The notes beneath the pieces are model-generated. The model was not told the DNA's origin. It did no database searches and saw only the letters and a program-made list of their open reading frames with translations. The position numbers and the translations under genes were made by a program. This document shows positions 271-4,039 of a stretch of DNA of 64,000 nucleotides, one piece after another. Numbering within the stretch: the stretch's first letter is position 1; each line of letters starts with the position of its first letter. The DNA is taken from contig JADFQJ010000002.1 of assembly GCA_022561875.1 (NCBI GenBank), positions 1 through 64,000 on the forward strand. Reading direction: 5' to 3'. This DNA comes from Bacteroidota bacterium. Lineage in GTDB: Bacteria > Bacteroidota > Bacteroidia > Bacteroidales > VadinHA17.

Positions 271-1170
271 GTGATTTAAAAATAATAATAATAAAAAGAA
301 ATTAATCGCGTATAGTTAATAAAAAGCCCACCATGTTAAAGTTTGGTATGATAGCCCAAACTTTACTAACTATCCTGGAAAAGATAGTGTAAACAGAAAA
401 CAGACACTGCGCTGCGAATAAATATTCAAATTAGATGTCTTCTTCTGAAGGCTATTCCTGAGCCAGATTTTAAATACTTTTCAAAATCAATAGCTTTATA
501 TTTATCAGGTTTTTATGCAGTTTTAACAAAGGTAACAATTTAGATAAAATTGTGGGTTGGCAGTGGACTGCGTCCACCGTAGCCCGGAGGAGCTTCAGCG
601 AATAATATTAACATATAGTAGAAAAATGAAGCCCTCCTTCGCTATCACCTACGCTAAAGCTACGGAGATCAAAGAAAGCTACGTAGGGCGGAGGTGGAGT
701 GAACCGGACAGTAGTCGAACTTATTTTAGAGAGATTTGCTTGGATTGGTAAAACTTAATAAGCAAATTTAAATTCTTGTGAACATCCAACCTCATATAGC
801 TTATATTATTCAAAATAAATTACATCCGAATTATTGATCATGGTTCACCTATGATGAGAAAGTGGAAGAATGGCGATCGGTATTAAAATTTATTTAAAAT
901 GATTCCCGAAAACGGGTAGGATAGTTTACATGCTTTTTAGATATAATATGATTCCGCAGCAAGTTATTGAGTATTTTTGTTAAGTGTGCTTTGCAAAAAT
1001 TACAAACAACCTATAATAATGTGTTCCAAATTGTGAGAGAAATAAAGCTATGAGTATAAATCCACATAAAGATTGTTTTCTTTAGCTTCATAAGACATTA
1101 AACAATAATGAAAAGAAAGATAATTCTTTTACTGAAGACCAGATTATTGAGTTGGCTAAAGGTGTTAGGT
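271..1170. other. About 900 bp without an intact gene
   Basis: This stretch holds a 9-bp hairpin (AAAGTTTGG at 338-346 with CCAAACTTT at 356-364), an intergenic repeat at 557-720, and fragments of open frame that look decayed. One fragment starts at an ATG at 1050, meets TAG at 1083-1085, and continues in frame as LHKTLNNNEKKDNSFTEDQI, which reads like protein but has no start. I cannot assign it to a family. The whole stretch looks like eroded accessory DNA. Confidence 0.5.
557..720. repeat. Intergenic repeat, copy 1, with ssrA-tail-like end
   Basis: The stretch opens with a TGGACTGCGTCCACC palindrome, continues through GAAGCCCTCCTTCGC, and closes with a 21-bp block (679-699) identical to 3629-3649 beside ssrA. 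AGTCGAAC follows at 713-720, which is also found inside the ssrA 3' end at 3658-3665. An open frame of 64 codons here is best explained as repeat sequence, not a gene. Confidence 0.6.
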
Positions 1171-1917
1171 TTAAAAATAATATCCTTTACCATCACAAAT
1201 ATCACAGCTGTAAATCAATCCTTTACATCTGCAATGCCTGGCTCCCTCCAGTAAGCCGGTTGGTTTTTCTTTCTCACCTCCACTGAAAAGACTGATGCCA
1301 AACCAGTCATCCCAACTCTTCCAGCCATTATTCTTAAAAGCTATATCCGGACAAGCATAAATATTTTTTGCTTTTCGGCCATATTTAATAGAATTGCCAT
1401 CACAATAATCTTTCCAGTCACTTATTGTCCCAAACTTAAGAGTCCTGACGAATTTCTTTGTCGTTTTAAAATCCTTGAATTGTATTTTAGTTCCAAGCCA
1501 ATCTGACCAGCCTTCCCAACCGGCATCTTTATATTCCAGCCAGGGTTTAACAGGTATACTAATTTTATATTTCAAATTTAAAGGATTTTTTTGGCTAATA
1601 TACTCCATCCACTGTTTTTTGCTTTTAAGCCTTAAACTTCTTGTAAATTCACAGGCTTTGAAGAATGAGCTATAAATCTTTTTGTCACTTGGGCTTATTA
1701 ACCAGTCGGACCAACCTTTCCAACCAACATTCCTGTAAATTACATCAGGATTTTGCGGGATATTATCAGGTAATGATTCCTTATTTTTATATTCCTCCCC
1801 CAATAACGAACACCATTCTTCATAGTATTCCAGTTCGTACAACCTGGCAAAATTCCTTGCATTCTTAAAAGAGAGCCATTTCTCTTCAGGTTGATCCCAT
1901 AACGTTAAATCGTTCAT
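1171..1917 (-). CDS. Phage-integrase-repeat (PHINT-type) protein with Cys-rich tail
   Basis: This 248-residue protein has three repeats built around the same Trp-rich motif: NVGWKGWSDWL (63-73), DAGWEGWSDWLGT (131-143) and NNGWKSWDDWFG (197-208). Each is preceded by a segment like W..Y......, proline-rich turns and a helix with F.RxL. This matches the phage-integrase repeat unit family, usually seen beside tyrosine-recombinase domains, but no recombinase domain is present. The last 20 residues contain CRC...C..C (residues 229-241), a possible zinc site. It lies alone between the repeat at 557-720 and the ATPase gene, facing left. Its function is unknown; DNA binding is a guess from the repeats and cysteines. 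Confidence 0.75.
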   Translation of the reverse strand: MNDLTLWDQPEEKWLSFKNARNFARLYELEYYEEWCSLLGEEYKNKESLPDNIPQNPDVIYRNVGWKGWSDWLISPSDKKIYSSFFKACEFTRSLRLKSKKQWMEYISQKNPLNLKYKISIPVKPWLEYKDAGWEGWSDWLGTKIQFKDFKTTKKFVRTLKFGTISDWKDYCDGNSIKYGRKAKNIYACPDIAFKNNGWKSWDDWFGISLFSGGEKEKPTGLLEGARHCRCKGLIYSCDICDGKGYYF

Positions 1918-2130
1918 GACTCCGGGTATATGAAAAGTTTTTATTTATTTATTGTGAATTCGGTTCAAGCAGCGAATAAAGATAGTTGATTTGTTTGTTT
2001 TAAAAAAAAAGAAGCTCACCAACACCAAGGCTTCGGTGGGCGAAACCCTCCTGCTATCTGCTGCCAAATGCTTAGCGATGGGTGACGCTTAAGCTACGGT
2101 ATTTTATTATTACCATAATTTTTTTCAGAT
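1918..2130. other. Intergenic spacer with a degenerate repeat
   Basis: Between the divergent PHINT-type gene and the ATPase gene, 2010-2097 has wording like the repeats at 557-720 and 3531-3649 (GGTGGGCGAAACCCTCC, then CTTAAGCTACGG) but more diverged. No open frame worth calling is seen. Confidence 0.35.
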
Positions 2131-2132
2131 AA

Positions 2133-2209
2133 TTTTGGATGTTAAATCCAATATTATCCGATATATTTGGAATTTAATTCCAATATTGTCAGTTTTTTTA
2201 TTATATTTG
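2133..2209 (+). promoter_or_regulatory. Paired palindromic operators and -7 box of the ATPase gene
   Basis: TTGGAT-GTTAA-ATCCAA (2135-2151) and the perfect TTGGAATT-T-AATTCCAA (2167-2183) are two copies of one palindrome, 32 bp (about three helical turns) apart; the trailing AATATT(A/G)TC is repeated as well. A TATATTTG at 2202-2209 matches the Bacteroidetes -7 consensus TAnnTTTG exactly and lies 14 nt before the ATG at 2224. A repressor at these sites would sit just upstream of the polymerase. The regulator is not identified. Confidence 0.6.
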
Positions 2210-2223
2210 CTAAAAAAGCAGTT

Positions 2224-3471
2224 ATGTATATCCCCCGAAAAATACATCAGGAAATAAAAAACCACCTTAAAAGAAAAGAATATACAATAATCACAGGCCC
2301 TCGTCAAAGTGGTAAAACATCATTAATACAAGCTTTATATAACGAATTAAAAAATGACGGACAAGCAGTAAGTTACATTACTTTTGAAGACAGGGATATT
2401 TTATCAGCTATTAATAATCATCCTGAAAATATTTTTTCTTTTTCACCCCGTCCCGGAAAACCATTAATGGGAGCAAAACCAACAAGTCAACCCGTTTTTC
2501 TATTTATTGACGAAGTTCAATATGCTACTGATCCTTCTAACTTTTTAAAATATTTGTACGACACCTATCGTGAAAATTTAAAAATCGTTGCAACAGGCAG
2601 CAGCGCTTTTTATATCGATAAAAAATTTACTGATTCTCTTGCTGGAAGGAAAAGGTTATTTGAATTAAAGACACTCGATTTTGAGGAATGGTTGATATTT
2701 AAAGATTTAGCCGATTTATCAGAGGAATTAAGTTTAATAAGAGACCGGAAAGAATATATTTCGCCCGTGCATTTAGAGTTAATGGATAAATTTAATGAAT
2801 ACTTGATTTTTGGCGGTTATCCCGAAGTTGTACTTGAAAATAATTTTGAGGAGAAAATAACTCTGTTAAAGGACATAAAAAACTCTTTTTTGAAAAAGGA
2901 TATTGATGAGGCGGGAATAAGTAACCCTGATAAATTCTATAATCTGTTAATACTTTTGGCCGGTCAATCCGGAAATCTTGTAAACAGGAATGAGTTTGCA
3001 AATACGATTGGAGTTGATAATAAAACCATCGACAAATATCTTTATGTTCTTCAAAATTGCTTCCATATTGAACTGGTTAAACCATTTTATTCTAATTTAA
3101 GAAAAGAGCTTACCAAAATGCCAAAGGTTTATTTCAAAGATCATGGGTTAAGAAATGTTACACTAAATCGCTTTTTTGATTTTAAATTACGTGAAGACCA
3201 GGGTGCATTACTGGAAAATTATGTTTACAAACGACTGTCGGGCATTTACGATTCAGATGCAATACGCTTTTGGCGAACTACCGATAAAAAAGAAATTGAT
3301 TTTGTTATCAGCACTTCATTCCGGGAAGGTTTAGCCTATGAAGTAAAAATGAATTGCAAAACAGTAAAGCTTGTCTCACTAAAAAAATTCAGCAATACTT
3401 ATCCGGATTATCCGATAGAGGTTATTTCTTATGATATTGACACAAAATGCAAATGGGTTTTGAAGGTGTAA
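2224..3471 (+). CDS. AAA ATPase with DUF4143 domain
   Basis: The ATG at 2224 (MYIPRKIHQEIKNHLK) is preferred to the in-frame TTG at 2167, which lies inside an operator palindrome; the protein is then 415 residues. A Walker A motif GPRQSGKTS lies at about residues 25-33 and a Walker B VFLFIDEVQ near 100, as in the AAA_14 family. The C-terminal part has FWRTTDKKEIDFVI followed by AYEVKMN, the E..D...E.K pattern of the DUF4143 nuclease-like fold. Members of this family are common as stand-alone accessory genes in Bacteroidetes and archaea, and no biochemical role is established. Paired operators upstream suggest tight regulation. It ends about 170 bp from the 3' end of ssrA. Confidence 0.88.
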   Translation: MYIPRKIHQEIKNHLKRKEYTIITGPRQSGKTSLIQALYNELKNDGQAVSYITFEDRDILSAINNHPENIFSFSPRPGKPLMGAKPTSQPVFLFIDEVQYATDPSNFLKYLYDTYRENLKIVATGSSAFYIDKKFTDSLAGRKRLFELKTLDFEEWLIFKDLADLSEELSLIRDRKEYISPVHLELMDKFNEYLIFGGYPEVVLENNFEEKITLLKDIKNSFLKKDIDEAGISNPDKFYNLLILLAGQSGNLVNRNEFANTIGVDNKTIDKYLYVLQNCFHIELVKPFYSNLRKELTKMPKVYFKDHGLRNVTLNRFFDFKLREDQGALLENYVYKRLSGIYDSDAIRFWRTTDKKEIDFVISTSFREGLAYEVKMNCKTVKLVSLKKFSNTYPDYPIEVISYDIDTKCKWVLKV

Positions 3472-3530
3472 AATAAGCTTCATCATTGCATCTTAGGATG
3501 TAAACATACAACATAACGAAATTTATTATT

Positions 3531-3649
3531 GATGGACTGTGTCCACCGGCTTTGTTATCCGTAGCTTAAGCGAAGGATAAAGCCCGGAAGAGCCTTGAAG
3601 AAGTGGGCGAAGCCCTACTTCGCCAAGGCTACGTAGGGCGGAGGTGGAG
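3531..3649. repeat. Intergenic repeat, copy 2, abutting the ssrA 3' end
   Basis: The copy begins TGGACTGTGTCCACC, as does 562-576 with one change, and ends in the same 21-bp block (3629-3649 = 679-699). Inside is a perfect 7-bp hairpin, GGCGAAG (3606-3612) with CTTCGCC (3618-3624). Read from the minus strand this hairpin lies about 20-40 nt after the end of ssrA and could help end or process its transcript. The last bases overlap the acceptor end of ssrA. Confidence 0.6.
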
Positions 3650-4039
3650 CTGGAGGGAGTCGAACCCTCGTCCACACTGGGAGATCATATGGTTTCTACA
3701 TGCTTAGTTCTGCTTGATTGTCGGGAAATGCCCGGTGCAAAACACCCAAGCCTGACCTTAGCTCTTTAAATTTCACCGGCAGACCAGAGCCTCCTGCCAA
3801 CTAACTTTGAATTGCCTGCGCCTCGTTACCGGGTTGGAACAAAGTAAAACCGCCCGCGAGACGTCTCGTCCCGGTATCTGATACCGGGATTATGCAACTA
3901 ACCTACTTAACTTCGGTCAGGCAGCGAGAGCGTATTTGTTTTCGCCATTTATGGTTTGTGATTGAGATTAACGAGCATAATCACCAAGCTCGGCATGCTT
4001 GCATAACATCTTGCCCGGATGTCAAAACCAGTCAGCCCC
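3645..4039 (-). ncRNA. ssrA: Transfer-messenger RNA (tmRNA)
   Basis: The 5' end GGGGCTGA (4039-4032) pairs with CAGCTCC (3652-3646) to form the tRNA-like acceptor stem, and the 3' part carries the T-arm GAGGGTTCGACTCCCTC. The reading frame at 3946-3917 encodes GENKYALAA followed by TGA, the degradation tag that, after the alanine carried by tmRNA, is added to stalled proteins; the YALAA ending is the typical bacterial tag. The genome reads ACC then T after the stem, so the full CCA tail is apparently added after transcription. tmRNA and SmpB rescue ribosomes stuck on broken messages. Its 3' end borders the accessory region, a usual place for integration of mobile DNA. Confidence 0.96.

Follow-up and report, generated by a model that had tools for sequence, protein, structure and literature searches.

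What are the two repeats that stand beside ssrA, the gene for transfer-messenger RNA (tmRNA), on contig JADFQJ010000002.1 of a metagenome-assembled Bacteroidota genome (assembly GCA_022561875.1), and what brought them to the 3' end of that gene? We analysed the first 64,000 nucleotides of the contig (the window). A reading made from the sequence alone had noted that the repeats flank two genes, one for an ATPase and one for a 'PHINT-type' protein, and had proposed that this segment of about 3 kb is a genomic island at ssrA, or the remnant of one. We find instead that the repeats are the hairpin heads of separate small units with an open reading frame (ORF) for a GIY-YIG nuclease, and that both enclosed genes are bystanders. 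The ssrA 3' end is the landing site of these units, which in the window are worn-out, dead copies, two or more in number, of which only pieces remain. Judged by their sequences, they are probably free-standing GIY-YIG homing-type elements of tRNA and tmRNA 3' ends, chromosomal analogues of phage SegB that have died at this locus.

Results

Two congeners settle the identity of the repeats

In the congener G003 (locus L049), ssrA is followed by one hairpin module, an intact 78-amino-acid GIY-YIG ORF (Pfam PF01541, 1.2e-15), a distal segment and an exact repeat of the last 17 bases of ssrA; from tail to tail, the distance is 500 bp. Neither the PHINT-like nor the ATPase gene is present at this ssrA; the sequence-only reading had named an empty site with one copy as support for its island, and G003 has a single module and lacks the two genes. 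In the congener G001, as in the window, module A (the copy adjoining ssrA) is followed by the ATPase gene, the N-terminus of a second ORF and the PHINT-like gene, but no left repeat copy (module C) is present. These two loci together settle that the window repeats are hairpin heads of units. From the comparison of the window with G003 and G001 we therefore conclude that the ssrA end was struck more than once and that the units then decayed.

The 21-bp identity reported for one end of the two copies is real and extends to 22 bp (678-699 and 3628-3649). At up to 3 mismatches this shared end has 2 matches in the window and none in 100 shuffles, and no third copy of the 22-bp block was found at that level in the whole genome; the pair is also scored as a 25-bp repeat with 96% identity. 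A genome-wide family of repetitive extragenic palindromes (REPs) was rejected as the identity of the repeat for the host genome, where the 22-bp end occurs in two copies. The far ends correspond as well, on the minus strand (GGTGGACGCAGTCCAC at 563-578 and GGTGGACACAGTCCAT at 3532-3547). The inner parts of the two copies share a layout and not a long identity. Beyond the shared end, the T-arm sequence AGTCGAAC is present twice (713-720 and 3658-3665), the right one lying within the ssrA T-arm, as had been observed. Its left counterpart can be aligned with an ssrA tail (GTTCGACT...CTCCACCTCCGCCC), and the partly preserved tail suspected beside the left copy is indeed a decayed relic.

A family of small nuclease genes at RNA gene 3' ends

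The intact ORF encodes about 78 amino acids with a single GIY-YIG domain, in which Y5, Y15, G17, R25 and E61 are invariant among 15 homologues; its nearest solved relatives by sequence are UPF0213 and SLX1. With four GIY-YIG proteins as queries, the family search gave 80 named loci, 75 of them with enough upstream sequence. In 61 of these 75, a tRNA or tmRNA gene of the same strand has its 3' end no more than 400 bp upstream of the ORF, compared with 2 of 464 background windows taken from the same loci away from the ORF. Broader and more divergent searches gave an upstream tRNA or tmRNA in 14 of 30 loci, and 3 to 5 more had one downstream only. The hosts belong to Bacteroidota, Pseudomonadota (mostly Rhizobiales), Chloroflexota, Planctomycetota, Verrucomicrobiota, Omnitrophota and candidate phyla; one Frankia record nests within Bradyrhizobium, and its assignment may be wrong. 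Target genes include ssrA and those for tRNA-Ala, tRNA-Ser, tRNA-Leu and tRNA-Met. Target labels placed on a poorly resolved tree show 14 changes, versus a mean of 35 after shuffling, which suggests that targets are mostly inherited, yet do switch. A diverse alignment of the family, tried as a profile source, held no conserved stretch, and a second alignment was used instead. Plasmids and phages were considered as vectors of the units and rejected, with distant matches only.

Anatomy of the units

Intact units measure about 300-500 bp and run from a module at the 3' end of the RNA gene through the ORF and a distal segment to, in many cases, a tail copy. The hairpin lies between the RNA gene and the ORF, and the outer arm of the module is the host RNA gene's own 3' end: CTCCACC pairs with GGTGGAC in ssrA and tRNA-Ala modules, CTCCGCC with GGCGGAC in tRNA-Ser modules, and CACCATAC with GTATGG in tRNA-Leu modules. 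The longest match of the spacer to the reverse complement of its own RNA end has a mean of 7.03 nt, against 5.48 nt for other-isotype ends and 4.84 nt in shuffled spacers, an excess that comes partly from related loci and makes these figures descriptive rather than proof. Modules also fold better than shuffles (z from -2.4 to -5.8). In 21 of 84 units the tail copy beyond the ORF scores above the 99th percentile of a null made from mismatched pairs. Compact units at tRNA-Ser in Chloroflexota and Planctomycetota have the order tRNA, module, ORF, hairpin, tail copy. Some distal tRNA copies are disrupted by a short hairpin, which lies in the T-arm or in the anticodon-variable region, but the upstream tRNA is intact.

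Other layouts were seen besides. At two loci (L079 and L082) GIY-YIG ORFs lie 5' of tRNA-Ser(CGA), together with partial tRNA-Ser copies; those of L079 have a hairpin in place of the D-loop, a mirror image of the layout of the main class. At L083 (G037:C3) two GIY-YIG ORFs are scattered through an array of tRNA-Val-like copies; the anticodon loop is altered in several of these copies. Elements of about 200 bp with no ORF occur 3' of ssrA in G023 (L064) and G019 (L063 and L068), with imperfect terminal inverted repeats and an ssrA tail copy at the end. The distal end of the G023 element resembles that of the G003 GIY-YIG unit, and these ORF-less elements are possibly non-autonomous relatives.

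Signs of mobility

Identical tRNA-Met genes are found both occupied and empty in the genus of G302, where in about ten genomes a unit beside tRNA-Met is matched at least in part and in most others tRNA-Met alone is matched; four empty-site flanks that were read consist of tRNA-Met and its terminator, without the ORF. Tandem arrays exist as well. The longest described here (L207; G159:C9, 1097-5488, on the tRNA-Met strand) has ten units of 457 bp, each a GIY-YIG ORF with a 27-nt copy of the tRNA-Met tail; nine of the ORFs are identical and the tenth differs by two amino acids. Further arrays have three units of 369 bp and two of 350 bp. Between G003 and G019, which belong to different genera, the ORF DNA is 91.9% identical, versus 69.8% for ssrA; of the codon changes in the ORF, 12 are synonymous and 5 nonsynonymous.

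Remains and neighbouring genes in the window

The pieces of units in the window (Table 1) include some that had escaped the sequence-only reading, namely a third module remnant (B) and two fragments of the ORF, whose window copies are broken. Module A aligns to the G003 unit with a score of 176 and folds with z = -5.3; homologues of it are present at ssrA in G001, G003 and G017. Part of module remnant B (1993-2044) was also matched by blastn (83%, E = 1e-9), and the corresponding place in G001 retains a GIY-YIG N-terminus. The C-terminal ORF fragment was recovered in the genome search at E = 1.1e-7. The ssrA gene itself is continuous, with no intron according to ARAGORN and no intron family at Rfam gathering thresholds.

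Table 1. Features between ssrA and the contig start, with their positions in the window
Feature	Position	Strand	Evidence
ssrA (tmRNA, tag GENKYALAA), intact	3643-4039	minus	ARAGORN; Rfam RF00023, 146.5 bits
Hairpin module A, begins at ssrA 3' end (CTCCAC/CTCCGCCC...GGTGGACACAGTCCAT)	3532-3649	minus	
GIY-YIG ORF, N-terminal remnant (MLYVYILRCNDEAYFT, codons 1-16)	3467-3514	minus	tblastn, 75% identity to intact G003 ORF
AAA_14/DUF4143 ATPase gene, trapped between units	2224-3471	plus	Pfam
Module remnant B	1964-2044	minus	Alignment to G003 unit, score 80 vs null maximum 51
248-amino-acid repeat protein gene ('PHINT-type'), bystander	1171-1917	minus	
Relic of ssrA 3' tail (GTTCGACT...CTCCACC)	693-720	minus	Local alignment to ssrA tail
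Hairpin module C (left copy)	563-699	minus	Shared ends; fold z = -3.5
GIY-YIG ORF, C-terminal remnant (codons 53-78)	429-506	minus	tblastn, 81% identity, E = 9e-9
Remnant of distal part of unit (GCGCAGTGTCTGTTTTCTGTTTACA)	388-412	minus	Aligns with distal part of G003 unit

The ATPase and PHINT-like genes are the only large ORFs between the two copies and neither is an integrase in Pfam, in agreement with the reported lack of one. The 'PHINT-type' label is without Pfam support: the 248-amino-acid protein has no Pfam or NCBIfam match, and is characterised by three W-rich repeats and a C-terminal CxCxG...CxxCxGxGY motif. Of 60 relatives, 10 have homologues, and these stand in several contexts. 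Because the gene lies about 6 kb from ssrA in G017, beyond isocitrate dehydrogenase and other genes, and has no ssrA nearby in G008 and G019, it is not part of the unit. The end of the ATPase gene abuts codon 16 of the remnant GIY-YIG ORF, and this gene likewise adjoins ssrA in G001. The two genes as cargo of an element were considered and rejected, the PHINT-like gene being found in several contexts among relatives. Near the contig start (187-276), the window also has tandem and inverted repeats of 39-42 bp (TTACCACAAAAACAAAATATGTGGTAAAAG).

Discussion

The sequences show how the units are built, that they are associated with tRNA genes, that tails are duplicated, that sites can be occupied or empty, and that units have passed between genera. 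With this in mind, one may propose how they move. According to this model, the nuclease would cut or nick a tRNA or tmRNA gene that lacks the unit, in the manner of SegB at the T-arm, and recombination or repair by the host would then copy the unit into the cut gene. The RNA gene upstream would have a functional 3' end and the former tail would lie downstream of the unit; repeated landing, together with recombination between tails, could give rise to the stacks and tandem arrays. A reasonable alternative is that the nuclease recognises the hairpin structure, as structure-specific enzymes of the SLX1 type would do.

Several observations weigh against homing-type elements of this kind. The protein does not have the DNA-binding tail of known GIY-YIG homing enzymes, and the tail copy is absent from most Rhizobiales units. 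Occupied tRNA genes keep an intact T-arm, and tRNA-Met units keep even the terminator, which leaves the escape of the occupied allele from cutting without an explanation; this intact upstream tRNA and the missing separate DNA-binding domain are the awkward facts for the model. In addition, the 17-bp tail of G003 resembles that of the ORF-less element of G023 and could belong to a different element.

Three other explanations were weighed. The hairpin modules could be palindromic repeats moved by another enzyme, as RAYT moves REPs, with the ORF either carried along or a selfish gene in its own right that has a preference for tRNA ends. Modules in tandem with no ORF between them (L130, L142 and L153) and the ORF-less elements with tail copies at the ssrA of G023 and G019 speak for this, but in several phyla tRNA ends carry both module and ORF, the hairpin cores being similar, and the 22-bp end is limited to two copies in the host genome; we consider this explanation unlikely. 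Decidedly improbable is an immobile, host-beneficial nuclease, similar to UPF0213, that acts on tRNA or tmRNA transcripts or trailers and is kept beside its substrate. Such a role would suit the close tie to tRNA 3' ends, the pairing of the hairpin with the tRNA end, the purifying selection on the ORF and UPF0213 as the nearest solved family; it fits poorly with units that are patchily distributed within a genus, occur in tandem arrays and as decayed copies, have duplicated tails and have passed between genera. Least probable of all is the 3-kb island that lost its integrase and carries the PHINT-like and ATPase genes, for although a module and a tail relic stand on both sides and the ssrA of G003 is without both genes, an integrase is missing, the repeats belong to GIY-YIG units as their heads, module remnant B separates the two genes, the PHINT-like gene is sited elsewhere in other genera, and G001 has both genes yet no left copy. 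A history of mobile elements at the ssrA 3' end is what survives of that proposal; the repeats as attachment sites of such an island do not.

The GIY-YIG units are best compared with SegB, a phage homing enzyme of this superfamily whose cleavage motif within tRNA genes is RAWTSGAAC, the T-arm complement, and which, through recombination, causes tRNA and segB to be amplified in tandem (PMC13096335). Both place a nuclease gene beside tRNA genes, and tandem arrays are found in the bacterial units too. The latter differ in residing on bacterial chromosomes, in their single domain of about 78 amino acids, in the hairpin fitted to the 3' end of the host RNA and in the duplicated tRNA tail, and their nuclease role is predicted. 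With integrase islands they share the landing at an RNA gene 3' end, a gene left functional and a tail on the far side; this hallmark direct repeat is present as 17 bp in G003 and as the decayed relic in the window. Unlike such islands, they measure 0.3-0.5 kb, have no integrase and a nuclease of another superfamily, and carry a hairpin in some distal tails. The coupling of small hairpin repeats to one nuclease-type gene recalls the REP/RAYT system (REPtron), whose enzyme is a Y1 HUH protein instead of GIY-YIG and which is not anchored at tRNA or tmRNA ends; no Y1 (RAYT) transposase was noticed beside the units, although no genome search aimed at RAYT was made. UPF0213/YazA-YhbQ (PDB 1zg2 and 1ywl), nearest among solved structures and likewise a single GIY-YIG domain, is annotated only as hypothetical proteins, and the likeness noted is one of sequence. 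Finally, group I introns of the tmRNA T-loop, some with LAGLIDADG homing genes, are also mobile and target ssrA near its 3' end (PMC11915505); these are spliced and interrupt ssrA, whereas the window ssrA is contiguous.

Taken alone, the window offers a modest result, dead copies of an element, and its interest lies in the class to which it points. Tentatively, and with slightly less than even confidence in the reading as a whole, the units may form a widespread and so far undescribed class of very small, self-contained mobile elements (about 300-500 bp) at tRNA and tmRNA 3' ends in at least six phyla, each combining a nuclease of about 78 amino acids with hairpins moulded to its host RNA end and carrying or leaving a tail copy, the nuclease recognising the hairpin or the T-arm. 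In full-text searches of open-access PubMed Central no account of such GIY-YIG elements at the 3' ends of bacterial tRNA or tmRNA genes turned up, and only the phage SegB paper was relevant; the novelty of the class is provisional, as the subscription literature lies outside this scope. The 3' end of a tRNA or tmRNA gene is a classic landing site, though for integrase elements. If the proposed class is real, its members would be among the smallest self-contained mobile elements known, consisting of a single-domain nuclease gene and hairpins, and a chromosomal counterpart of SegB. Palindromic repeats and pieces of tRNA tails that lie unannotated next to tRNA genes would in many cases be accounted for as well, and, should the model hold, a tail duplication at a tRNA gene would by itself be no proof of an integrase island.

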